From the IMG/VR virus record IMGVR_UViG_3300049457_000013, positions 1 to 47,577 of that record: a stretch of 47,577 nucleotides of DNA, one strand, 5' to 3'. The notes under the pieces were generated by a model. The model worked only from the letters and a program-made list of their open reading frames with translations. It had not been told where the DNA came from and searched no databases. Position 1 is the stretch's first letter. The number at the start of each line of letters is the position of its first letter. This DNA is from a virus. A program made the position numbers and the translations under genes. Below are positions 5,733-23,589 of this stretch, piece after piece.

Positions 5733-6467
5733 ATGCTCGCCTTCCACTCCAACCCAACATTGAAGGCTTTCGTACTAGCGCAACTTGCCGAACATCGCGA
5801 GGCCGACAAGCTCATTAAGGGCAAATACTGGGAAAACGGTAAGGGCTGCGCCGTCGGCTGCACCCTTGAGGCCGTCCGACTGTACAACGGCAAATTCAAG
5901 ACTGGTATCGACTACGCATCACACGCACTCTATGAGAGTGAACTTGGCATCCCCAGAATCCTTGCGAGGTTGGAGGACAGGATTTTCGAGAAACTTCCGA
6001 ATGGCGACAGTCAGGCATGGCCTGAACGGTTCACAAACGCGATACGCCCTGGCGCGGACCTCACGATGGTTTGGCCCCAACTCGCTTACTGGCTGCTAAC
6101 TGATGAAGTCCCACCACACACAAAGAATTCTCGCTCACTCGCATCGCTAGCTGAGGTCGGAGCACTCTATCGCGAATGGATTGATGGCACGAAGCCCACC
6201 AAGGAGCGTTGGCTGAATGCTAGGGACGCCGCCTCCGCCGCCTCCGCCGACGCCGACGCCGACTCCGCCGACGCCGCCGCCGACGCCGCCGCCGACGCCT
6301 CCGCCGCCGCCGCCGCCGCCGCCGCCGCCTCCGCCGCCTCCGCCGACGCCGACGCCGCCGCCGACGCCTCCGCCTCCGCCTCCGCCTCCGCCGACGCCGC
6401 CTCCGCCTCCGCCGACGCCTATCGTCGTCAATCCGACAAACTCATCGAATTACTGGAAGCCGCCTGA
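5733..6467 (+). CDS. Phage protein with conserved N-terminal domain and long Ala/Asp/Ser tract
   Basis: A 244-residue protein with AGGAGAC before the ATG. The first 160 residues carry GKYWENGKGCAVGCTLE and LGIPRILARLEDRIFEKLPN, hallmarks (from memory) of a family widespread in tailed-phage genomes with no known biochemical role. Residues about 165-230 are a pure Ala/Asp/Ser tract coded by GCC repeats with GAC or TCC interspersed (6226-6420). A short charged helix (RRQSDKLIELLEAA) ends it. The tract is predicted helical or disordered and the DNA is prone to slippage. Homologues commonly have Ala/Asp-rich tails too, so the tract is part of the family design. Confidence 0.8.
   Translation: MLAFHSNPTLKAFVLAQLAEHREADKLIKGKYWENGKGCAVGCTLEAVRLYNGKFKTGIDYASHALYESELGIPRILARLEDRIFEKLPNGDSQAWPERFTNAIRPGADLTMVWPQLAYWLLTDEVPPHTKNSRSLASLAEVGALYREWIDGTKPTKERWLNARDAASAASADADADSADAAADAAADASAAAAAAAAASAASADADAAADASASASASADAASASADAYRRQSDKLIELLEAA
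6226..6420 (+). repeat. GCC/GAC/TCC trinucleotide repeat tract
   Basis: About 195 bases are built almost only from the codons GCC, GAC and TCC, in the frame of the upstream protein. Runs of pure GCC reach about eight codons. Such tracts slip during replication, so length can vary between phage isolates, and short-read assembly may be wrong here. All three reading frames on both strands stay open, which creates artefactual Pro- and Gly-rich frames. Confidence 0.85.
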
Positions 6468-11564: not shown

Positions 11565-12908
11565 ATGAAAATCATCCCACTCACCGCCATCGAGGTCCGT
11601 ACTCGCCAGCGCAAGTCTATTGCGCCCGGTCCCCTCCGTGAGCTAACCGAGTCAATCCTCGGGCGAGGGCTATTACAACCGCCCGTCTGTTGGTTCGACG
11701 AGACCACCCACACCGAAGTCCTTACCGTCGGCGAGCGCCGCCTTCGAGCGATACAGGCCATTGCAGCCTCTGGCCGCACATTTAGCTGCAATGGCCAGAC
11801 TATCCAAGCCGGCTTCATCCCAATCCTCACCCTCGCCGAATTCCTCGACACCGCCGGCCGCTTCGAGGCCGAGCTCGACGAAAACATCCACCGCGAGGAC
11901 CTTCCCTGGCCCGACCGGGCGCGGGCTCTTGCCGACCTCCATGCGATGCGAAGCACGTCGAACCCGAAGCAAACCCTCTTAGACACCGGGAAGGAATTGG
12001 TAACCCGTGGCGCCTTCGTTCACCCCGTGGCGGCGTCGCAACACGTCCGACAGGCCGAGATCGTTGCGAAGCATTTCGACAACCCAAAGATACTCAATGC
12101 CAGGAACGTCGGCGAGGCGTATGGGCTCGTGCTGAAGCTGGAGGAAGAGAAAATAAGAGCGGCGATGGCGCGGAAGGACATCGCTTCCGGTCGTGGGCTG
12201 GCCGACCTCGAGGTCCGTCTCGCCGACCTGGTGCTCGAGTTGCCAAAGCTCGACGCAAATACATTCGACCTAATCCTTGCCGACCCCCCATACGGGATCG
12301 ACGCCGCGAGCGCTGGCTTCCGTTCCCGTACCGTCCACCATCACAACTACACCGACGACGTGCAGACGGCCCGCCACCTCGCCCAGACGATTATATCCGA
12401 AGGCTTTCGCGTCTGCAAGCCGCGAGCCAACCTGTTTCTATTCACCGATATAAAGCATTGGGAGTGGCTACAACAACACTCCGCTGCCGCCGGCTGGACT
12501 CCCTTCCGCCGGCCCCTCATTTGGGGCAAGAGCGACACTGAGGGCTTCGCCCCGTGGGGCTCCCAAGGCCCTCGCATTACCACAGAGTTTATCTTCTTCG
12601 CCACGAAGGGCCAAAAGGGCCTCATCGCCTCGCCGACAGACTACCTCCGCGTCAACCGGGTATCGCGAAGCGAACGCCTCCACGCCGCCGAGAAGCCAGT
12701 TGAGTTGCTGCGAAAGCTAATTGAATGCTCAACACAACCGAATGACTTCATCCTCGACCCCTGTTGCGGCAGCGGAAGTACGCTTGTCGCCGCAAAGGAG
12801 AGTCGCCGTCGCGCCCTCGGCATCGAACGCGACCACGACTACCACACCACGGCCCTGGCAAACTTGTACAATACCACCAAGGATGAACAAGTCGAGTTAC
12901 CAATATGA
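11565..12908 (+). CDS. ParB-like domain fused to a beta-class DNA methyltransferase
   Basis: The 447-residue protein has an N-terminal ParB/Srx-type domain (residues about 1-130; KIIPLTAIEVRTRQR and a TVGERRLRAIQ box) and a C-terminal methyltransferase. DPPY lies at 240-243 and DPCCGSGST, the SAM site, at 398-406. Catalytic before SAM motif is the beta-class order, so it is an N6-adenine or N4-cytosine enzyme. The fusion is known in phages and mobile elements. It probably modifies phage DNA against host restriction or marks replication sites. No cognate restriction gene is nearby. SD is GAGGAC. Confidence 0.88.
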   Translation: MKIIPLTAIEVRTRQRKSIAPGPLRELTESILGRGLLQPPVCWFDETTHTEVLTVGERRLRAIQAIAASGRTFSCNGQTIQAGFIPILTLAEFLDTAGRFEAELDENIHREDLPWPDRARALADLHAMRSTSNPKQTLLDTGKELVTRGAFVHPVAASQHVRQAEIVAKHFDNPKILNARNVGEAYGLVLKLEEEKIRAAMARKDIASGRGLADLEVRLADLVLELPKLDANTFDLILADPPYGIDAASAGFRSRTVHHHNYTDDVQTARHLAQTIISEGFRVCKPRANLFLFTDIKHWEWLQQHSAAAGWTPFRRPLIWGKSDTEGFAPWGSQGPRITTEFIFFATKGQKGLIASPTDYLRVNRVSRSERLHAAEKPVELLRKLIECSTQPNDFILDPCCGSGSTLVAAKESRRRALGIERDHDYHTTALANLYNTTKDEQVELPI

Positions 12909-13183
12909 CAACCAAACACTCACCGTTAGGGGCACTCAAAGTCCAAGCGGCCAAGATCGCCACGACACTTAAGGCAGCAGAACGTGGAGATAGAATTGAT
13001 GTCCGCTTCGCCGAAAGGATCGCCGAGGCGAGAACGAAGTCTGGCATCAAAATCGGCGTCGTTATGGACGATAAAGTCATTACATTCGAAATACCATGGG
13101 CGACAATCCGGGCGTCGAGTGAGACCGCTATAGCCGAATACATCGTCAAGTATATGCAAGAGAAGCATAATGCCCCCAACTGA
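12905..13183 (+). CDS. Hypothetical 92-residue protein
   Basis: Starts at an ATGA overlap with the methyltransferase and overlaps the polymerase gene by 14 bases. The sequence is a helix-strand-helix arrangement (AERIAEARTKSG, KIGVVMDDKVITFEIPW, AIAEYIVKYMQEKH) without motifs I can name. The tight overlaps suggest co-expression with the DNA polymerase, perhaps as a small accessory factor. Confidence 0.65.
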   Translation: MTTKHSPLGALKVQAAKIATTLKAAERGDRIDVRFAERIAEARTKSGIKIGVVMDDKVITFEIPWATIRASSETAIAEYIVKYMQEKHNAPN

Positions 13184-14972
13184 CCTTTGGTTCGGCACCT
13201 CCGGGCCGCGAGACGCCCCGATCGTCCTAGTCGGCGAAGCCTTTGGCGCCGAGGAGGCTGCCTGCTCCCGTCCCTTCGTCGGAAGCTCTGGTGTCGAACT
13301 AAGTCGCATCCTAGCCGAAGCAGGAGTGAAACGCGATGAAATTCTTCTCACCAACGTTGTGGCTGCTCGGCCACAAAACAACGAAATGTGGCGCCTCTTT
13401 GAACCTAAGGGACGAGTTGATAAAGCACAACAAAAAGTGGGTGGACTTTATCCAGCACAATTCGTACAAGATGAAGTCCGGCGATTGTATTCTCATATCG
13501 CAGCGCACCCCCGACGGCTTATTATCTGTGCAGGAAATTACCCACTTTGGGCCCTCACTAATCATTCTGGGGCTGAAGTTATCCGCTCAAGCAATAACAG
13601 ACCAGTGCCGCCGGACCTTCAAACGTATGTGCCGACCGGCATCATGTCGTGGCGAGGGAGTATGACATATGGACTTCGAGACCGTTTTCACTCTGGCGAT
13701 AGTGGGCTACATAATGGTAGTCGCAGCGATGACGTACCTGTATTACCGATTATTCATCCGGCAGCAATAATGCGCCAGTGGTCGCTGCGGGCGGTGATCG
13801 TCCACGACCTAAAGGCCCGCGTTCGAATGGCCCTCGCCGGCGACTGGCGACCAGACCCGCCGCCCGTTTTTTGGGCGCCACCGACCTTTCTGCAATGCAC
13901 GGCACAATTAGCGGTGTGGCTAGCTCGTGCCGATGCTGGCGAGCAAATACGAATTGCCGAAGACATTGAAACGGCAAGGGGCCTCATCACCTGCCTCGGC
14001 CTTTCTGACTCCCCCCAATTTGCTATGAGCATACCCTTCGTCCGCAAAACCGACAGCGGCACGTTCGACTCTTGGTGGTCGCAGGATGAGGAAGGTATGT
14101 TAATGGTTCTCCTCCGCCGCCTCAACACCCACCAGAACATTTTGATTGAGGGTCAAAACTTCATCTACGACACGCAGTATATCCAACACTGGCTCGCCGT
14201 TACGCCGCGCCTCGACTTCGACACAATGCTGGCGCAAAACGTCCTCTTCCCCGGCACGCCAAAGAGCCTCGACTATCTATCCTCGCTGTTCTGTAAGTAC
14301 CATTGGTATTGGAAGGAGGATCATAAGGAATGGGATATGTCGGGGACAATCGAGCAGCTCTTACTATACAATTGCATGGACTGTGTTCGTACCTATGAGT
14401 GTGCCACGACACTTAGGGCACTAATCGTGCAACTAAAACAGACCGAACAGTGGAAGCTCAAGATGCAAATCAACGACCTCTGTCTCCGAATGATGAACCG
14501 AGGGGTGTTGATCGACACAAAGGGGCGCGCCGCTCTATCTATGCAGCTCGCCGAAACGATCTCCCAACTCGAACACGACCTTCACACAATTGTGCCGCAA
14601 GATGTTGTGGCGCCAGACGCGAAGCGCCCATGGTTTAGCTCGCCACAGCAAACCGCATACTTGTTCTACGATCGCCTCGGCTTCCGGGTCGAAACGCAAC
14701 GGAAGACGAAGCGCCCCACCGTCGGCAAGGACGCCAGAGTTGCGCTCGCAACTCGCTACCCCGAGTTCACCGGCCTTTTCGAACGCCTCCGCCTCCACGG
14801 CTCTTGCGAAAACACCCACAACGTCATCAATGCCGGCCTCGACCCCGACGATAGGATGCGGTGTTCGTTCAACCCCGGCGGCGCCGAGACGCACCGGCTC
14901 TCGTCGTCGAAGAACGCCTTCGGCCGCGGCACAAATCTGCAAAACCTTACGAAAGGGGAGGAGGACGAATAA
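13170..14972 (+). CDS. DNA polymerase A, N-terminal part: UDG-like, 3'-5' exonuclease and thumb
   Basis: Residues 1-220 are a uracil-DNA-glycosylase-superfamily domain: LVGEAFGAEE (19-29), RPFVGSSG (34-41), LLTNVVAARPQ and IIHPAA (H196). Residues about 255-420 are a 3'-5' exonuclease with Exo I DIE (265-267), Exo II D334 (QNFIYD) and Exo III D404 (YNCMD). The thumb and the start of the polymerase follow, ending at RLSSSKNAFGRGTNLQN and a short acidic tail before TAA. Motifs A, B and C are missing and are encoded at 15252-15995 in the same frame. A fused UDG is known in phage SPO1 polymerase. Together the halves make a full replicative PolA. Confidence 0.88.
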   Translation: MPPTDLWFGTSGPRDAPIVLVGEAFGAEEAACSRPFVGSSGVELSRILAEAGVKRDEILLTNVVAARPQNNEMWRLFEPKGRVDKAQQKVGGLYPAQFVQDEVRRLYSHIAAHPRRLIICAGNYPLWALTNHSGAEVIRSSNNRPVPPDLQTYVPTGIMSWRGSMTYGLRDRFHSGDSGLHNGSRSDDVPVLPIIHPAAIMRQWSLRAVIVHDLKARVRMALAGDWRPDPPPVFWAPPTFLQCTAQLAVWLARADAGEQIRIAEDIETARGLITCLGLSDSPQFAMSIPFVRKTDSGTFDSWWSQDEEGMLMVLLRRLNTHQNILIEGQNFIYDTQYIQHWLAVTPRLDFDTMLAQNVLFPGTPKSLDYLSSLFCKYHWYWKEDHKEWDMSGTIEQLLLYNCMDCVRTYECATTLRALIVQLKQTEQWKLKMQINDLCLRMMNRGVLIDTKGRAALSMQLAETISQLEHDLHTIVPQDVVAPDAKRPWFSSPQQTAYLFYDRLGFRVETQRKTKRPTVGKDARVALATRYPEFTGLFERLRLHGSCENTHNVINAGLDPDDRMRCSFNPGGAETHRLSSSKNAFGRGTNLQNLTKGEEDE

Positions 14973-15298
14973 TGGGATATCCTTGGGTGAAACTTTGTCC
15001 CTGTTGTGGTCAAGATATTGTAGTGTCAAACGAGATAACAAGTCTTCGAATCAGGCCGGGGCCACTACAAGTCTTAATGCGTCTTGTCCGAGCTAAGTCA
15101 TGTACTTTAACCTATGAGCAACTTGGGCATAACAGACCAACACTCCACGTCTATATATCACAGCTACGTGCCGCTTTACATGAAACCGGCTCCCCCTGGA
15201 GTATTAAAACGGACTACAGTATAGGCTATTATGCAGTAAGGACAAAAGAACATGACAGCGATAACCCTCCCGAACGTCAGGAAGCTCTTCATTCCTGA
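14972..15298 (+). CDS. Zinc-knuckle winged-helix protein lodged inside polA
   Basis: The 108-residue product starts on the last base of the polymerase stop (TAATG). It opens with LCPCCGQDI, a Cys knuckle, and continues with an OmpR/PhoB-type winged helix: LTYEQLGHNRPTLHVYISQL, then RAALHETGSPWSIKT and GYYAV. Small proteins of this design occur in other phages as free-standing DNA binders. Here it fills a 285-base insert between polymerase halves, and its 3' end overlaps the second half by 47 bases. The DNA is clearly richer in A+T than the flanks, suggesting recent acquisition. It may be a regulator or a remnant of a mobile cassette. Confidence 0.8.
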   Translation: MGYPWVKLCPCCGQDIVVSNEITSLRIRPGPLQVLMRLVRAKSCTLTYEQLGHNRPTLHVYISQLRAALHETGSPWSIKTDYSIGYYAVRTKEHDSDNPPERQEALHS

Positions 15299-15995
15299 CC
15301 CCGGCTACACGATGTTCGACGCCGACCTCAAGGGTGCCGACGCCCAAGTCGTCGCTTGGGAGGCAGAGGACGAGGACCTAAAGGCCGCCTTCCGCGCCGG
15401 CGTCGACGTGCATTCGAAGAATGCCGAGGACATGCTCGGCGCGACGTTCACACAACTCTCTGGCCATGCCCGCGACGCAAAGCGCCAAGAGACGAAGAAG
15501 GGCGTCCACGCAACGAACTACGGCGGCGCCGCCCGCACCCTCGCCATTACCCTCGGATGGACTGTTCACGACGCCGACCGCTTTCAGCGACGTTGGTTCG
15601 CCCTCCATCCAGGGATTAAGAACAATTTCCATAACCGCATACAAGCCGATCTCCACCGCAACAGGACCATCACAAATGCCTTCGGTTTTCGACGCGTTTA
15701 CTTCGACCGCCCCGACGCCTGCTTTACGGAAGCATTGGCGTGGAAGCCACAGAGTGTCGTGGCCCTCAACAGTTTCATCGGGGCGCTTCAACTGGAAGAA
15801 AAGTTCCCCTCCGTCCAAATACTGCTCCAAGACCACGACTCCCTCGTGTTTCAATTCCCGACGTCGCAGATACCGCCGGCGGCAATGATACTGTCGGCGC
15901 TCACCGCAGTCACGCCATACCCCGATCCTCTCCGCATCCCGTGGGAGCTAAAGTCGTCGACGAAGAGTTGGGGGGATTGTAGGAAGGTTGGATAG
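15252..15995 (+). CDS. DNA polymerase A, C-terminal part with motifs A, B and C
   Basis: The 247-residue piece starts with LPNVRKLFIPDPGY, the natural continuation of the first half. Motif A is FDADLKGADAQ with D25. Motif B is RQETKKGVHATNYGG (residues 78-92), with K82 and Y90 in the places of Klenow K758 and Y766. Motif C is QDHDSLVF (D194-H195-D196). The Phe762 position appears to be H86, which is unusual. The two halves are in the same frame, and the junction loses no residues. The product must assemble with the first half to make an active enzyme. A weak SD (AAAAGAA) precedes the ATG. Confidence 0.88.
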   Translation: MTAITLPNVRKLFIPDPGYTMFDADLKGADAQVVAWEAEDEDLKAAFRAGVDVHSKNAEDMLGATFTQLSGHARDAKRQETKKGVHATNYGGAARTLAITLGWTVHDADRFQRRWFALHPGIKNNFHNRIQADLHRNRTITNAFGFRRVYFDRPDACFTEALAWKPQSVVALNSFIGALQLEEKFPSVQILLQDHDSLVFQFPTSQIPPAAMILSALTAVTPYPDPLRIPWELKSSTKSWGDCRKVG

Positions 15996-16041: not shown

Positions 16042-16278
16042 GTGAACCCTCAAATACCAATAACCGTCTACACCCTCTACGCCAACGTTGCTAGGGTGGA
16101 GCGTAAGACTGAGGTCACCAGTGGGCACAAAGCGCCCAACGGCGAAGCCGTTCTAACCACTCGTGAGCTAGGTTGGTTTGTTCAATTTGTCGACTCCCGC
16201 GAATCCCTTTACTTCGGACAGGAGGAACCGCAATTAAAGGTCGGAGATCGAGTTAAGATTACATTCGAGAAACAATAG
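16042..16278 (+). CDS. Hypothetical 78-residue beta-rich protein (GTG start)
   Basis: A GTG start at 16042 has CGGAGA eight to nine bases upstream. The product is a run of strands (ITVYTLYANVARVERKTEV, GWFVQFVDSRESLYFG, KVGDRVKITFEK) and looks like a small barrel. The final KVGDRVKITF is a common SH3/OB edge. Its stop overlaps the helicase-like gene start (TAGTG), so the two are coupled. Function unknown, maybe a helicase accessory. Confidence 0.65.
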   Translation: MNPQIPITVYTLYANVARVERKTEVTSGHKAPNGEAVLTTRELGWFVQFVDSRESLYFGQEEPQLKVGDRVKITFEKQ

Positions 16279-17501
16279 TGGCCCGACACTATCCGCACTG
16301 GTTGAAGGCATACTTGGAATATACCCGCGCCAGCGAGTCTCCGACGGTGTTCCATTTCTGGACGGGGGTCTCGGTACTCGCGGGCGCATTGCGACGTAGG
16401 GTTTGGCGCGACGAACTGAACTTTAAGTGGCGCCCGAACTTCTACATCATCATGGTCGCGCCAGCGGGGATCGTGAGCAAGTCGACCACCATGAACCTCG
16501 GGATGGATTTGCTTGCAAAGGTCGAGGGTATCCGTTTCGGCCCCGACAGCGGCTCTTGGCAAGGCCTCGGCGACGCAATGGCCGAGGCGACGGAATACTT
16601 CAAATACACAAACGGAACCGGCGAAGAGCAAATGATCCCCATGTCGCCGGTGACGGTTGCGGCGAGCGAACTCGGCACATTCCTTCGTCCCGATGACGAA
16701 GGGGCGGTGTCGTTTATAACCGACGTGTGGGATGGGCGGGAGCGTCCCTACTCACACAAAACGAAACACTCCGGTAAGATCGAGATACTCGGTCCTTTCT
16801 TGAACCTAATTGGCGCAACAACCCCCTCGTGGCTCAAGCGTAACTTCCCGGAGAACTTGATCGGCGAAGGACTAACATCGCGCATTGTATTCGTTTACGG
16901 TGACCGCAAGCGTCATCTTGTGTCCCTTCCATCTCGGCAAATCCATAAACGTGATTTCTACGAAATGCAAACAAAGCTCACCGAAGACCTTCAGCAGATC
17001 GCCCAAATGGTTGGGGCCTACGAATTCACCGATGAAGTGTATCGAGAGGGCGGCTGGATGGACACTTGGTACGACACACTGTCGAAGATACGTCCCATCC
17101 ACATGGCTTCGGAACGTTACAGCGGCTACCTCTCACGTAAGCAGGGGCATTTAGTTAAACTGGCAATTGTTCTCGCCGCGTCGAAACGCGAAGAGTTATC
17201 CATCACCCGCGAGGACCTCGAGGAAGCCGATGCCATCCTCCTTGATTCCGAAAAGGCGATGCTTCAGGTATTCGAATCCATCGGCATCGTCGATGAGGCA
17301 AAACACGTTGGCACTCTCGTGACGTATGTGCGCGCCTACAACTGGCTAACCCGCGCCGAGCTGTATAAGTTGTGTTGGAATATAATGTCCGAGCGTGACT
17401 TTTTGCAAGCAATTCGTCTCGCCGTCGACGGGGGCCTGCTGCAAGTCGTGAAGAAGGATGGCGCCCTCGGGCTCGGCCCAACCATAAGGACAACCCACTA
17501 A
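16278..17501 (+). CDS. DUF3987-type helicase/primase-like P-loop protein
   Basis: The 407-residue protein starts with GTG on the last base of the previous stop. WLKAYLEYT and FHFWTGVSVLAGAL are typical of the N-terminal part of DUF3987 proteins. APAGIVSKSTT (61-71) is a variant Walker A, with Val-Ser in place of the usual Gly before Lys. Downstream GLTSRIVFVYGDRKR and a C-terminal winged-helix-like end follow. Members of this family accompany phage primases and are thought to be DNA helicases. With no other replicative helicase visible, this is the best candidate. The catalytic strength of the odd P-loop is uncertain. Confidence 0.7.
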   Translation: MARHYPHWLKAYLEYTRASESPTVFHFWTGVSVLAGALRRRVWRDELNFKWRPNFYIIMVAPAGIVSKSTTMNLGMDLLAKVEGIRFGPDSGSWQGLGDAMAEATEYFKYTNGTGEEQMIPMSPVTVAASELGTFLRPDDEGAVSFITDVWDGRERPYSHKTKHSGKIEILGPFLNLIGATTPSWLKRNFPENLIGEGLTSRIVFVYGDRKRHLVSLPSRQIHKRDFYEMQTKLTEDLQQIAQMVGAYEFTDEVYREGGWMDTWYDTLSKIRPIHMASERYSGYLSRKQGHLVKLAIVLAASKREELSITREDLEEADAILLDSEKAMLQVFESIGIVDEAKHVGTLVTYVRAYNWLTRAELYKLCWNIMSERDFLQAIRLAVDGGLLQVVKKDGALGLGPTIRTTH

Positions 17502-17659
17502 TGCCAGAGATAACCCTCACCCTCACGTTTGCGCAGCGGCATCTCGAAGTGTTGATGAAGGAGGCCGCCTTCCGCGACATCTCGCTGACGGAACTGTTAA
17601 ATCGTATCTTCCAACAAACCGTCGAGGATAATCTTTTCGTCGCAATTCTCGACGACTAG
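17501..17659 (+). CDS. 52-residue ribbon-helix-helix-like protein, last early gene
   Basis: Starts on the last base of the helicase-like gene stop (TAATG) and ends with TAG at 17657-17659. The sequence begins with a strand (EITLTLTF), then two helices (RHLEVLMKEAAFRD and LTELLNRIFQQTVED). That layout fits a ribbon-helix-helix DNA binder, though it is short. The stop overlaps the stop of the giant late gene on the other strand through CTAG. It may control the switch at the convergence point, but this is speculation. Confidence 0.6.
   Translation: MPEITLTLTFAQRHLEVLMKEAAFRDISLTELLNRIFQQTVEDNLFVAILDD
17656..17659. other. Convergent stop codons sharing CTAG
   Basis: The rightward gene ends TAG at 17657-17659 and the leftward 1977-residue gene ends TAG (cta on the plus strand) at 17656-17658. 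The two transcription units therefore meet with zero spacing, and no terminator can fit between them. Confidence 0.9.
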
Positions 17660-20600
17660 CGGACGCGACGCGCATCAACTGGCTGCGCCTCCGGGAACAA
17701 CCCTTGGATATGTCGAGCGAGTGGCACGTTGCTCCGCTGGATGGGTACACCGGCCTCCTTCGCCACCACATCACGCTGCCGCGCTTGGAGTGACTGCCGC
17801 AGTGAGTCCGAAGTTATCGCCTTACCCCTTGCCTCCGTCGGGAGCGTTTGATTATAGTGGACAATGGCATCTCGTACCCGACCAATCTCCTCTTTATTCC
17901 CGCCAACAATCGCCTCGAACATCTGGTTTCGCAACCCTTTACCCTGTAGGTCGTAGTATGCCTCCCTCTCCGCCAGCGCCATAATGCTGTCCCACTTCGC
18001 CGCTGTCCTGAGGTTATTATACCCACCAAGCAACCCAAGTATCTCCATCATCTGCTCAGTGTCGCGAGTGTCATACGGCACCACCGTTGCTGCTGACTGC
18101 TGGCCTCCACGCGTCCGCTCCCTTCCCTCGCTAAACGCACGGTAAGCTTTCGACGCATCCCCAAGCGCCCGCGGGATCGCCCTCTCCCAGCGCTTCGGAT
18201 CACCAAGGCTTAGCTTGTCATCGCGGAGGAATTTGTATAGGTTGAAGCCAAGGCCAAAGACGGCGCCACTCGCCTTCTGCGTCTCGTCGGCAAGGAGCTT
18301 ATCCTCATCCTTCACCTCCGGTCCGAGCATTTTACCTATATCGACCGGCAGTATGTTGCCCATCGAGAGCGCCCTGCTTCGATCGAACACAGGCGCCGGA
18401 ATGTTCTGCGCCGGCCCAGGTTGGAGCCCTCGACCAGGGAACTGCTGTCCCGGCAGCGCCCCACCGAGCATGTCGACGAGCGCTGGGAGCCCGAACCCAC
18501 GCCGCGCGAGCCCTTGGAGGATGATGTCCGACGGAACTTTACCATTCGTGAAGTCCTTAATCCATTCCCGCGCTGCCAACTTAACATCAAAGTCCTTCCC
18601 AAACAAATGATGTGCGAGTGCCTTAATGATGCCCACTAAGTCCTCCGCCCCCGGCACTCCCATCATCCCGCCCATGAGCATCGCGATGAACAAGTATCGT
18701 GGCAGCACATCGGCCTTGTTGGTTCCGAGCAGTGTTAGGACGCTTTGCATATACTTCTTAAAGACGAAGATTGTGCCGGCGAGTGGACTTCGCATAAACC
18801 GCGGGCGCGCATAGCGGGCGTAGACGAACTGCGTCTGATCGACCGTATACGCGGCGGTGACAATTGCCCTCGCTTGCGCCTCAGTGTGCGTGGAGAGTAA
18901 TTTCGTATACTCATCATTGTATTTCGATACAGCCTCCTGGACAACCTTCGCCTGCGGTTGCCTCTGTGCAAGGTCGAGCGCAGCACGATATGCAACTCGC
19001 CGGTTAAACTGTTCGGCAAGTTCGAACATCTTCGCGCCCGCCTCAACAAACCGCAAGACGCCCCGCTGTACCTTCGTCCCACCAAGGCCAACGATGAGGT
19101 TATTTCCCTGTGTCATTCCGGCTAACTCTGACGCCTGCGCCTCCGTTATCCGGCCGGTCTTAATCCCGTAGTCAAGTGCCTGCATCTCGAATTGCGGCAA
19201 TGCCTCATACTTTCCCTTCTTATAGAAATTTGTAACATCCGTCATTGCCTTCGCCAACGCCTTGCTAGCACTGAAGTCGCCAAACTTACCGGCGAGAAAT
19301 GGCAGCGTTATCATCGGCGTCTGTGTGAGGTTGAGTGTCGCCGCCGCCGGCACATACGCCATCGCCCAAAAGAAGATCGCCCCCTTAAGTATCCCATAGT
19401 CTCCCCGCGCATTAAGTATCGTATTGTCGAGATGATCTTGCATGAAGTTGGCAATCTCACCCGCCTTATTACCGCCGACCGCACGCGCCGCTGCAATTTC
19501 AGCCCTCGCCCCCCACAGATACTTCTGCCGAGCATAGTATCGTCCTCCGTGAAAGAAATAGCTTGCAAACGCCCGCTGGAAGTCCATCGAATACCCAGGC
19601 GTATAGTTCTTATGTTGGAAACGGTGGCGAAAGCTCTGTGCCGGGGATAGCTTGAATAACAGTTGGTCGACAGCATCTCGTTGCTCGTCAGTGAGTCCAA
19701 GTTTCTCCTTCATAGCCTCCAACAACAACGGCGGGAGTCCAACGAACTGTTCCGCCGTCTCCGGCAACACTCCGACATCTTTTACCGGGTCAATACTCTC
19801 CCCAGGTTGCAATTTACTTTCCAATTCCTTCCGCAATATCTCCTGCATTCGTGCCGCCGAGCGTAGACCTCGACGCTCTGTTGTGTGGAATTGAGTAACG
19901 TTCCCAGCCGCGTCGCGGACCGTAACGAAATGTCGACCGAAACGCATGAAGGGAAAATAGGGGCGGGCGCGGAGCGCATTCACTTGCTCTGTAATATCGA
20001 CAATACGATTTGCGAGCAATTGTGGGTTCGTAATCGTTCGCCTCGCGTCCTCGACTGCATTTTGCGCCGTCTTCGTCAAAAAGGCGTCGAACATCTTCCT
20101 AACCGAATCGAACACTTTTATGCTTGGCTGTGTAACCTTGTGCTTCGCGACAAGCGCTGCAAACTCTTGCTGTGTGGGATATCTTGCAACACCATTCGCC
20201 ACTTCCTCGTCCGTTCGATAGACCATATTCGCAACGTCGTCAATTAGCGCAGTCACGTTTTCCGCCTGATTACCAAGACGCCGCCAAGCCTTCCCCACTC
20301 CTAACGCGGCATCGAATATCCGTGCCTCCTCAAGGTGTATCTCCCGCATCCGTTCGACATAACGCAATAGAGGTGTGAACGAAGGATTAAGGTTTGCAAG
20401 TTGCGTGAGGTCCAGCATATACTTGTGAAACCTCGACATCGAATCGGCATGTGCCGCCATTTCCCGCAGTTGCGGCGGCGTCTCAACGTTGTCAAATAGC
20501 GAGGCGAGCATCTGTCTTGCGTCGGCCGTTTCGCCTTGCTGGGGGACAGCCTTTAGCCCCGCATCGACTGGTGTAAGCGCCCGTTGATTCTCCCGTTGCG

Positions 20601-23589
20601 TCCGAATGGCCACCGCTTCATTTATGTCGAAGCCCATCTTCGGCGCATTCTGGATAAACGAATTAAGCCACTCCTGCATCACCGGTTCGGCCCGAAACGT
20701 CATGCCGAATTTCTTCGCCATAAACTCGTGCATGAGGCGGAGCACTTTCCCGAGGTTCGCAAGTGCCCTCTCGGCGATCCCAAGGGGCTTCTCTCCAGTC
20801 GTGGCCCATCGGGCGACCTGCTCAGCGAACCACTCATCAAACCCAGTCCAGTAGTCGAGCGTCTCAGGTGACAACGACTGAAGTGCCGCGGTGCCGACTC
20901 CACGACGGCCAGAGTAGAGTATTGCCGCGTTGTCGCGTCGGTTCCACAGGCTTGTCAGCGTATCGCGAAGGGACGTACCAGAACGGAAGTTATTATAAGC
21001 TGTCAATATCTCCTGCTGCTGCGTCAGAGGGAGCCTCGCAAATTTCTCCCACATTACCGTATGACCGAACTCATGCACCATCGTTGCAAAGAGTTGCGAA
21101 GGGTCCTTGTGCATTCCAAGGTCGACTTGGATGAGGTATGTACCGTCGGTTAGACGTTCGGCGAAGCCGGCAACTATACGTGTGCCCTGTGGCCCCTCCA
21201 TCGCCTTCATCAACATCGCTTTGTTGACGAGTTGGATGCGAACCTTCGACTCGAATTTGAACTGCTTTATGTACTCCTGGATCGCACCCGCAACCTTTAC
21301 TGCATTCGCATAGAGTGGCTCATTCGCCACGAGGCCGGCGGCCCCCTTCGTGTCGAGGCTAACTGAACTCTCCCCTGACGCAAGCTGTGAGAATAATGGC
21401 AACCCCTGCTGAACCCGCGAACGCCCCCTTTCTGGTATTTCGACATACGGAACCTCCTCCGTTACTTGTCCATATTGATAATCTATCGCAGGATCGAGTG
21501 GCATAGTAACGAGATCAGTCTTACCAAAGGTGCCCCCAAGGTTCTTTGCCCACTTCTTCGCAATACTCGGCAACCTCACATCATACAACGTGCGAAGGAA
21601 TTGCATTGTCTTCGGATCACTGACCTGCATGGCGCGAATGGCCTGATCGCCGGTAATAAGTCCGACACGTGAAACGCCGGCATCGGCAGCCCACCGAAGG
21701 ACGCGCTTGAAGCCGAGTTCGAGCCACGTCGTCTTAAACGGCGCATCCGGGACTAATGCAGGATTTTCCGACAATCTAGTCGCATAGGCTTGTGCCGTCT
21801 CACGAGTATCTTCTGTCCCTACTAACTGTTTTGTGGATTGATTGAAAATACCAAATCGGCCATCCTGTTCTTTCACAATATATTGTATTTGTGGTTGACG
21901 ACCTCTATACCCAACATCGGCCCCCCTTTGGTGCCAATCACTCTGAATTCCCTCAACAAACACCATCTTATTGCCGGCATCATCAACTCGAACGTTGGTG
22001 ATTGCATGGACGAGGGGATTAACGATATCGGACCAGTGGGCAGTCTTAAATACCTCAGCGGCTGCGGCAGCAGAAGGCGCATCTCTACGTCCTGGATACA
22101 TCCACGCCGGCGGCGGCAGCGTGAGTATTAAATTCCTCGGTTCCGTATAAGGGCCAGGAACATTATACTCAGTATAACGAGCAGCGGTTGGATCAAGGCC
22201 TTCAATTTCTAGCCCCGGTGCCCCTCGAACAACTTCGGTAACTTTAATCTGCGACTCGGCGAGGTGATCCATCACGTCTTGTTTCGACACACGGCCCTCT
22301 TGCCCGGCGATGAACGTTGTGAGGCCAGTTGCTGCCAGTTCTTCCTCCTTAACCCCCGACGCATTGCGGATCGTTGCAAGCATCTGTTCGGGGCTTCCAC
22401 TTTCCGGAAGTTTCTCCTGCACGACCCGCTGAAGGTTTGAATAAAACACCGGACTAACCACTAGCGCCGCGGGCTCTGGAGGGGTTAAGAGTGACGGGGC
22501 AGAGACTGGCATTGGGCCAACAGTGAAGTCGGGCAATATCGTCAACGTCGGCGAAACAGGAGACAGCGGTGCCTCAACCGGCATGAACCCCTCGGGTGCA
22601 GTCGGCGCGGCGGCGGCAATCTGCTCCAGCGGCGGAAGCGGACCATTGCCACGAGGCCGTACAACACCGCCGGCCCCGCCAATTGTCCCGCCTCCGAGTC
22701 CACCAATCAGGGCATTGTCGGCAACTTTAATTACCTTCTCCTTCATCTCCGTCTGCGAACCGAGGTAGTGTTGCGCCCATTGCGAAATAACCTCCTGCAT
22801 CCCCTCCGTCGTACCTTCGACGAGGCTTCCCTTCGCCATTCCACTTACCACACGGCGAACTAAGTCCTTCTTCGCCTCCGCGAACACAGTTGAACCGAGA
22901 ACCTTGCCAAGACCGAAAACGTCAAGCGCAGCCATCGGAACCGCAGCGACGGCAGATGCCTGAGCAAGGGCGGCCGGCGTTGTCTCACCTCGTTGAACGC
23001 GCGCCTGGATGTCTTTATCGTCCCGAACGTTTCCATACAGGTCACCATAGTTCTGCACATATGAAGGACCGGCCGCCCCCGCCACGATGCCCGCGATCGG
23101 ATTTGTCGTCATCGCCCCGACACCGAGGCCCGCCACCGCACTCGGCGCACTACTGGCGAGGGCCGACCCGACTCCATACCCGGCATACGACAGCACGTCG
23201 TCGAATGATTTAATGTTCGTAAAGCTCGGCACCTTCGCCTCAAAACCGGCAGAGCGCTGTTTCCCCCATTCTTGCAAGTTCTTACCAACATCCAACAGGC
23301 CGGGATGATCGAGCATAACGCCGAAGCCCTCAGCGGCGTTGCCGAGATTCGTCGCATTACCCCCAATGAGGGTTCCTTGAAAGCCCTTTCTAAACTCACT
23401 CATCCCCGACGTGTCGGTTGACGTCGGCGCAGTCGTTGCGACTGGAATATCGAAGCCTTCTGGAGGCGGTGGCGCAGCCTCGGCTATCGCAACGACTGGA
23501 ATGTCAAAGCCGGCTGGCGGAGGGGGCGCAACCGGCTCAACAGGAACGTTGAAACCCTCCGGCGGCGCCGGCGCTACTTGATTGTCCAT
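17656..23589 (-). CDS. Giant polyvalent virion protein with zincin motif
   Basis: A 1977-residue protein. Residues 6-50 hold three copies of APPPPxGFDIPV. A Gly/Ala-rich region follows (about 130-310). Around residue 543, FVEGIQSDWHQRG and then PDAPFKTTW match a domain common in phage large polyvalent proteins. HEFGH at 839-843 is a zinc-metallopeptidase HExxH motif, with a later Glu-rich helix (FDEWFAEQVARW). The C-terminal part has RRVAYRAALDLA and a hydrophobic GGMMGVPGAED. Such proteins are carried in the head and ejected with DNA. It probably cleaves host wall or host proteins at entry. No peptidoglycan hydrolase motif was seen. Confidence 0.8.
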   Translation of the reverse strand: MDNQVAPAPPEGFNVPVEPVAPPPPAGFDIPVVAIAEAAPPPPEGFDIPVATTAPTSTDTSGMSEFRKGFQGTLIGGNATNLGNAAEGFGVMLDHPGLLDVGKNLQEWGKQRSAGFEAKVPSFTNIKSFDDVLSYAGYGVGSALASSAPSAVAGLGVGAMTTNPIAGIVAGAAGPSYVQNYGDLYGNVRDDKDIQARVQRGETTPAALAQASAVAAVPMAALDVFGLGKVLGSTVFAEAKKDLVRRVVSGMAKGSLVEGTTEGMQEVISQWAQHYLGSQTEMKEKVIKVADNALIGGLGGGTIGGAGGVVRPRGNGPLPPLEQIAAAAPTAPEGFMPVEAPLSPVSPTLTILPDFTVGPMPVSAPSLLTPPEPAALVVSPVFYSNLQRVVQEKLPESGSPEQMLATIRNASGVKEEELAATGLTTFIAGQEGRVSKQDVMDHLAESQIKVTEVVRGAPGLEIEGLDPTAARYTEYNVPGPYTEPRNLILTLPPPAWMYPGRRDAPSAAAAAEVFKTAHWSDIVNPLVHAITNVRVDDAGNKMVFVEGIQSDWHQRGADVGYRGRQPQIQYIVKEQDGRFGIFNQSTKQLVGTEDTRETAQAYATRLSENPALVPDAPFKTTWLELGFKRVLRWAADAGVSRVGLITGDQAIRAMQVSDPKTMQFLRTLYDVRLPSIAKKWAKNLGGTFGKTDLVTMPLDPAIDYQYGQVTEEVPYVEIPERGRSRVQQGLPLFSQLASGESSVSLDTKGAAGLVANEPLYANAVKVAGAIQEYIKQFKFESKVRIQLVNKAMLMKAMEGPQGTRIVAGFAERLTDGTYLIQVDLGMHKDPSQLFATMVHEFGHTVMWEKFARLPLTQQQEILTAYNNFRSGTSLRDTLTSLWNRRDNAAILYSGRRGVGTAALQSLSPETLDYWTGFDEWFAEQVARWATTGEKPLGIAERALANLGKVLRLMHEFMAKKFGMTFRAEPVMQEWLNSFIQNAPKMGFDINEAVAIRTQRENQRALTPVDAGLKAVPQQGETADARQMLASLFDNVETPPQLREMAAHADSMSRFHKYMLDLTQLANLNPSFTPLLRYVERMREIHLEEARIFDAALGVGKAWRRLGNQAENVTALIDDVANMVYRTDEEVANGVARYPTQQEFAALVAKHKVTQPSIKVFDSVRKMFDAFLTKTAQNAVEDARRTITNPQLLANRIVDITEQVNALRARPYFPFMRFGRHFVTVRDAAGNVTQFHTTERRGLRSAARMQEILRKELESKLQPGESIDPVKDVGVLPETAEQFVGLPPLLLEAMKEKLGLTDEQRDAVDQLLFKLSPAQSFRHRFQHKNYTPGYSMDFQRAFASYFFHGGRYYARQKYLWGARAEIAAARAVGGNKAGEIANFMQDHLDNTILNARGDYGILKGAIFFWAMAYVPAAATLNLTQTPMITLPFLAGKFGDFSASKALAKAMTDVTNFYKKGKYEALPQFEMQALDYGIKTGRITEAQASELAGMTQGNNLIVGLGGTKVQRGVLRFVEAGAKMFELAEQFNRRVAYRAALDLAQRQPQAKVVQEAVSKYNDEYTKLLSTHTEAQARAIVTAAYTVDQTQFVYARYARPRFMRSPLAGTIFVFKKYMQSVLTLLGTNKADVLPRYLFIAMLMGGMMGVPGAEDLVGIIKALAHHLFGKDFDVKLAAREWIKDFTNGKVPSDIILQGLARRGFGLPALVDMLGGALPGQQFPGRGLQPGPAQNIPAPVFDRSRALSMGNILPVDIGKMLGPEVKDEDKLLADETQKASGAVFGLGFNLYKFLRDDKLSLGDPKRWERAIPRALGDASKAYRAFSEGRERTRGGQQSAATVVPYDTRDTEQMMEILGLLGGYNNLRTAAKWDSIMALAEREAYYDLQGKGLRNQMFEAIVGGNKEEIGRVRDAIVHYNQTLPTEARGKAITSDSLRQSLQARQRDVVAKEAGVPIQRSNVPLARHIQGLFPEAQPVDARRVR

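Follow-up and report, generated by a model that had tools for sequence, protein, structure and literature searches.

The DNA polymerase A (PolA) of the virus record IMGVR_UViG_3300049457_000013, the 47,577 nucleotides of which are referred to here as the window, is encoded by two ORFs in the same frame, polN and polC, that jointly cover one family A polymerase and enclose a small gene, the slot gene (Table 1). By Pfam and PHROGs, polN contains the UDG and exonuclease domains plus the beginning of DNA_pol_A (profile positions 8-131) and polC the rest of it (positions 140-357), with PF00476 spanning both ORFs. Family A membership is indicated by the presence of motifs A, B and C with the catalytic Asp, Lys, Tyr and HD. 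A previous examination of these letters without database searches (the sequence-only reading) had described an in-frame split ahead of motif A with halves that join without loss. Both points held, as no conserved stretch is missing and most relatives with an uninterrupted polymerase have a short variable linker at this site. The insert size of 285 nt (95 codons) has to be corrected, as the stretch that starts with the stop codon and ends ahead of the polC ATG measures 282 nt (94 codons). The slot gene itself is longer, with the polC start falling inside its 3' end and its final 47 nt overlapping polC.

Table 1. Features of the split polymerase gene in the window.
Feature	Position	Strand	Description
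polN	13170..14972	+	600 aa; TAA at 14970-14972; UDG, aa 12-206; 3'-5' exonuclease, aa 242-416; start of PolA up to NLQNLTKGEEDE
Shine-Dalgarno-like AGGAGG	14959..14964	+	within the KGEEDE codons; 7 nt 5' of the slot gene ATG
TAATG	14970..14974	+	overlap of polN stop and slot gene start
Slot gene	14972..15298	+	108-aa protein, putative OmpR/PhoB-type winged helix by profile and model
Shine-Dalgarno-like TAAGGA	15237..15242	+	9 nt 5' of the polC ATG
polC	15252..15995	+	remainder of PolA; motifs A, B and C intact; ATG at 15252

The sequence-only reading had also considered that an intact homologue might exist elsewhere in the phage; no second PolA was found in the 47.6-kb record, the completeness of which is not established. 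The different composition of the insert was confirmed, with a GC content of 44.8% compared with 55.7% and 59.4% in the flanks, a GC3 of 36.7% compared with 62% and 73%, and only 0.6% of the 279-nt windows in the record being as A+T-rich as the slot. Upstream of the polymerase there is a ParB-N/N6_N4 methyltransferase fusion (11565-12908) and downstream a DUF3987 gene (a primase by PHROG; 16278-17501), and Microcystis phage Mel-JY34 has neighbors similar to both. A minus-strand ORF of 1977 aa (17656-23589) adjoins these replication genes.

The slot gene product matched PF00486 (Trans_reg_C) with an E-value of 3e-5 and 24.4 bits, just under the gathering cut-off of 26.2. Its structural model (pLDDT 73) had its best Foldseek matches (E 5.5e-3, prob 1.0) among the DNA-binding domains of SaeR, GlnR, OmpR and PhoB. 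The weak profile match and the model together support a predicted OmpR/PhoB-type winged helix, as had been proposed, but the zinc knuckle that was part of the same proposal was not supported, since the protein has one CPCC cluster and lacks another conserved pair of Cys. The description as an A+T-rich gene of DNA-binding type and not a homing nuclease agrees with our searches, Pfam and PHROGs revealing no nuclease domain in this gene. Direct relatives of the protein were absent from phages, and the viral contigs gave one weak match. It groups with the winged-helix proteins found in other slots by profile, fold and place only, not by BLAST. The product is probably a DNA-binding regulator, at a guess of the replication operon.

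Relatives were gathered with polC as query from viral contigs, species genomes and phage records, giving 129 distinct loci. The polymerase was split at one and the same point in 63 of them and open across the site in 65, and one lacked the N half. The shared cut point consists of NLQNIPKG(D/E)E followed by the stop, with polC opening just before LPNxRK, and nearly all polN C-terminal ends lie within a few residues of this motif, two (L039 and L042) extending slightly beyond. The search for other phages with the same split that the sequence-only reading had proposed yielded 62 further loci. The cultured Vibrio phage VS-ABTNL-3 shows this split. The gap between the halves ranged from 2 nt to 2.9 kb and held 0-6 ORFs. 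At L070 and L071 (about 5998-6003) the halves are separated by a single in-frame TAA followed by ATG, a minimal stop-restart. The related polymerase of Caulobacter phage Kuura (L011, 4971-8375) is interrupted at another position, within the exonuclease domain, and has ORFs of 98 and 102 aa between its parts.

In a phylogeny of 127 enzymes, 13 changes of the split state were required, at least eight of them forced by well-supported branches, compared with about 42 for shuffled labels. When all split enzymes were held as a single clade the tree was rejected (AU test, p 1.6e-7), which rules out a single origin of the split; either splitting, or splitting together with refusion, must therefore have recurred. 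Gain and refusion are not distinguishable on this tree. One open locus nested in a split clade (L023) may be a case of refusion.

A way to understand what the gap represents is to look at the genes that it contains. The slot ORFs are mechanical gene-chain predictions, many of them short and with no known domain, and were clustered by BLAST; there were 108, of which 107 lie on the polymerase strand, and they fell into 71 clusters. Twelve of the 63 split loci are empty (bare splits) and 11 hold at least four ORFs. An insertion into an intact gene as a one-off event, as the sequence-only reading had pictured it, does not agree with these bare splits or with the number of clusters. The commonest tenant is a dUTPase, present at 21 loci; within 6 kb, only one of the 65 open loci has a dUTPase. 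RNR appears in four slots and reads as class II from its single-gene form. HNH-type nuclease genes are found in five slots (L029, L045, L059, L100 and L191), the protein of L100 carrying an HTH as well. Winged-helix proteins occur in the window and at L015, L024, L026, L033, L035 and L082 (L026 being without a Pfam match and L033 outside the Pfam scan). Further cargo includes ThyX, SNase, an RNase T exonuclease, methyltransferases, a Lon-like protein, DUF3310 and DUF7768. Pfam was the basis for recognizing dUTPase, RNR, ThyX, HNH, SNase, methyltransferase and winged helix. Since many relatives are broken at the same spot with differing small genes, the break would be a reusable slot inside an essential gene. 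Within the window's own clade of seven, the dUTPase is whole in three loci (L015, L019 and L021), short or not recognized by Pfam in three others (L017, L018 and L014) and absent from the window slot; none was found elsewhere in the window. The slot of L015 holds a dUTPase and then a winged helix. The window slot gene may be what was left after the loss of a dUTPase, an order of events that we infer.

Two pairs of loci offer a glimpse of the junction in its empty and occupied states. The polymerases of L090 and L191 are nearly identical; in L090 the halves meet in a bare ATGA overlap, and in L191 that ATGA is the start of a 441-nt HNH/AP2-like ORF, which extends into the polC start shared by both loci (MSLGS...). 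This ORF has no Pfam match of its own and is linked by BLAST to HNH_3 proteins. The divergence between the two loci is somewhat higher within about 120 nt of the junction, which weakly suggests co-conversion. L079 and L149 form a second such pair, with a 192-nt Cys-rich ORF.

Both halves appear to have been kept functional, as far as the sequences tell. The Asp of motif A, the equivalent of K758 and the HD of motif C are retained in 63 of 63 split enzymes and the Tyr of motif B in 62, the remaining one having Phe. The dN/dS of the pair L090/L191 was 0.04 for the polN end and 0.07 for polC, and other unsaturated pairs gave 0.04-0.15; these values come from pairs of relatives, among which the window has no close one, and they show that both halves are under purifying selection in the relatives. 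An AlphaFold (AF2) model of the intact relative L049 (pLDDT 93) places the site in a 30-residue coil (residues 511-540) that follows a strand and precedes the helix and strand leading to motif A. The fold of this intact relative matches that of Bst Pol I (E about 1e-29). A cut in this long coil, which lies between the NLQN segment and motif A, would leave every strand, helix and catalytic residue whole. The position equivalent to Phe762 of Escherichia coli Pol I is His in all 127 aligned enzymes, including the window (15252-15995); a survey of PolA in virioplankton refers to Phe, Tyr and Leu762 types (PMC6302109).

Within the 27 nt that follow NLQ, 97% of split loci and 82% of open ones contain a Shine-Dalgarno match of 4 nt or more, compared with 39% of other gene windows, and for matches of at least 5 nt the figures were 48%, 28% and 12%. 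We found no selection for the Shine-Dalgarno through synonymous choice, the observed frequency being that expected from synonymous reshuffling, and the signal at the motif is therefore due to the encoded KG(D/E)E residues. The first start is ATGA or TAATG at 38 of the 63 split loci. A Shine-Dalgarno of at least 4 nt precedes 81% of polC starts against a background of 20%, the former being an upper figure, inflated because the polC start was picked as the best among several candidates. That a single site has been reused is possibly due to the ready ribosome-binding site that a stop and an ATG would find there.

Taking these observations together, we consider it highly probable that the replicative PolA of the phage is a permanently split, two-polypeptide enzyme and that its split point is used recurrently as a slot for genes. 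The codons for KG(D/E)E upstream of the cut, for example AAAGGAGA, would act as a Shine-Dalgarno, so that a stop and an ATG arising at the motif (as ATGA or TAATG) would leave two translationally coupled ORFs. The junction could then take codirectional genes between stop and start with nothing else being broken, the accepted genes being those of nucleotide metabolism (dUTPase above all, RNR and ThyX), small ORFs with no known function and occasional HNH nucleases. polN and polC would be translated separately, probably off one operon mRNA, and by analogy with split enzymes of other phages would assemble into one UDG-exonuclease-polymerase; post-translational assembly, one of the two outcomes offered by the sequence-only reading, is on this precedent the likely one. 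A bolder version, in which the junction is selected and not just tolerated, appears rather improbable. In it, the motif doubles as ribosome-binding site, the slot lets the phage match the amount of dUTPase, RNR, ThyX or a regulator to each polymerase half, and slot proteins, the winged helix included, act on or within a two-part replisome.

Selfish homing is the most serious competitor, although we regard it as fairly unlikely. An HNH-type endonuclease gene would have invaded a conserved site, split the gene and later decayed or been replaced, the winged helix of the window being a late tenant or a remnant. Homing genes are known in split phage enzymes (PMC2988022), five slots hold HNH-type genes, one of them with an HTH in the same protein, and the pair L090/L191, with its slightly raised divergence beside the junction, resembles a recent HNH gain or loss. 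To this extent the mobile-element idea of the sequence-only reading finds support among the relatives, but not in the window, whose slot gene has no nuclease domain. Moreover, the remaining 58 of the 63 slots lack such genes, dUTPase is the usual tenant, and the 12 bare splits have tight ATGA or TAATG overlaps. Homing accounts for entry into some slots better than for the single fixed position or the present content.

That the intervening stretch is removed or skipped, by an intron, a split intein or ribosomal bypass, to give one full-length polymerase is very improbable. The window halves do share a frame, removal was the other outcome offered by the sequence-only reading, and the authors describing phage MEP401 suspected an intron in its polymerase (PMC10580990). 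However, Rfam, run permissively at the site and also on 11 split loci, showed no group I or II intron. The polN end (KGEEDE) and the polC beginning (MTAITLPNVRK) leave no room for intein parts, and none are found there, which also eliminates a fractured gene. The gaps, up to 2.9 kb, can hold several genes, and polC is equipped with a start and a Shine-Dalgarno of its own. Still less probable are pseudogene decay of polN or polC and an error of sequencing or assembly as the source of the split. The record is metagenomic and known here without reads, but 63 loci share the cut with catalytic residues retained and low dN/dS, and a cultured Vibrio phage is split in the same way. Since the identical split recurs in 62 other loci, some of them present in two metagenome records, the assembly error envisaged by the sequence-only reading can be set aside.

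Split phage enzymes are usually viewed as rare accidents of homing endonucleases, and here about half of the sampled relatives are split at one point, a state reached or reversed several times, with a gap that houses genes, most frequently a dUTPase. Such junctions supply natural cut points at which a polymerase could be made in two parts, as well as a test of gene entry into essential operons. It also calls for caution in annotation, the polymerase halves of such phages being listed as separate genes. Split phage enzymes with cooperating parts and a PolA split around one ORF of no known function are known already; in the literature searched, largely outside the subscription journals, we found no PolA split point described as recurring and as housing exchangeable genes.

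Among known systems, the OM43 phages MEP401 and MEP402 resemble the window in having PolA in two ORFs around one small ORF of no known function (PMC10580990). The site is a different one, MEP401 being cut further downstream (...LFLSRYGE / MILNADAKALEW, just before motif A), which rules out that both splits are the same. They also differ in that the polymerase is distant, the only domains described for the N half are exonuclease and PolA, and no variable cargo was reported by the authors (PMC10580990). In the split gene 43 (43A/43B) of the T4-like Aeromonas phages 25 and 44RR and in nrdA of Aeh1, an essential enzyme is likewise made as two polypeptides around a junction; gp43A and gp43B of phage 25 co-purify and are active, and so is the split NrdA (PMC2988022). 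These are a family B polymerase and an RNR, in few phages, and their cargo is a homing endonuclease or an untranslated spacer instead of exchangeable metabolic genes (PMC2988022). As in 43A/43B, two ORFs cover one polymerase in the window. The halves of fractured genes with split inteins carry intein parts and are spliced. Such genes (Dassa et al. 2009, cited in PMC6892783) share with the window a gene cut in two with another gene in between and differ in the intein, for which the window has no room. Finally, Vibrio phage VS-ABTNL-3 is a cultured relative with the same split site and a TAATG, its slot holding a 184-aa ORF of no known function and its polymerase halves being annotated as separate genes.
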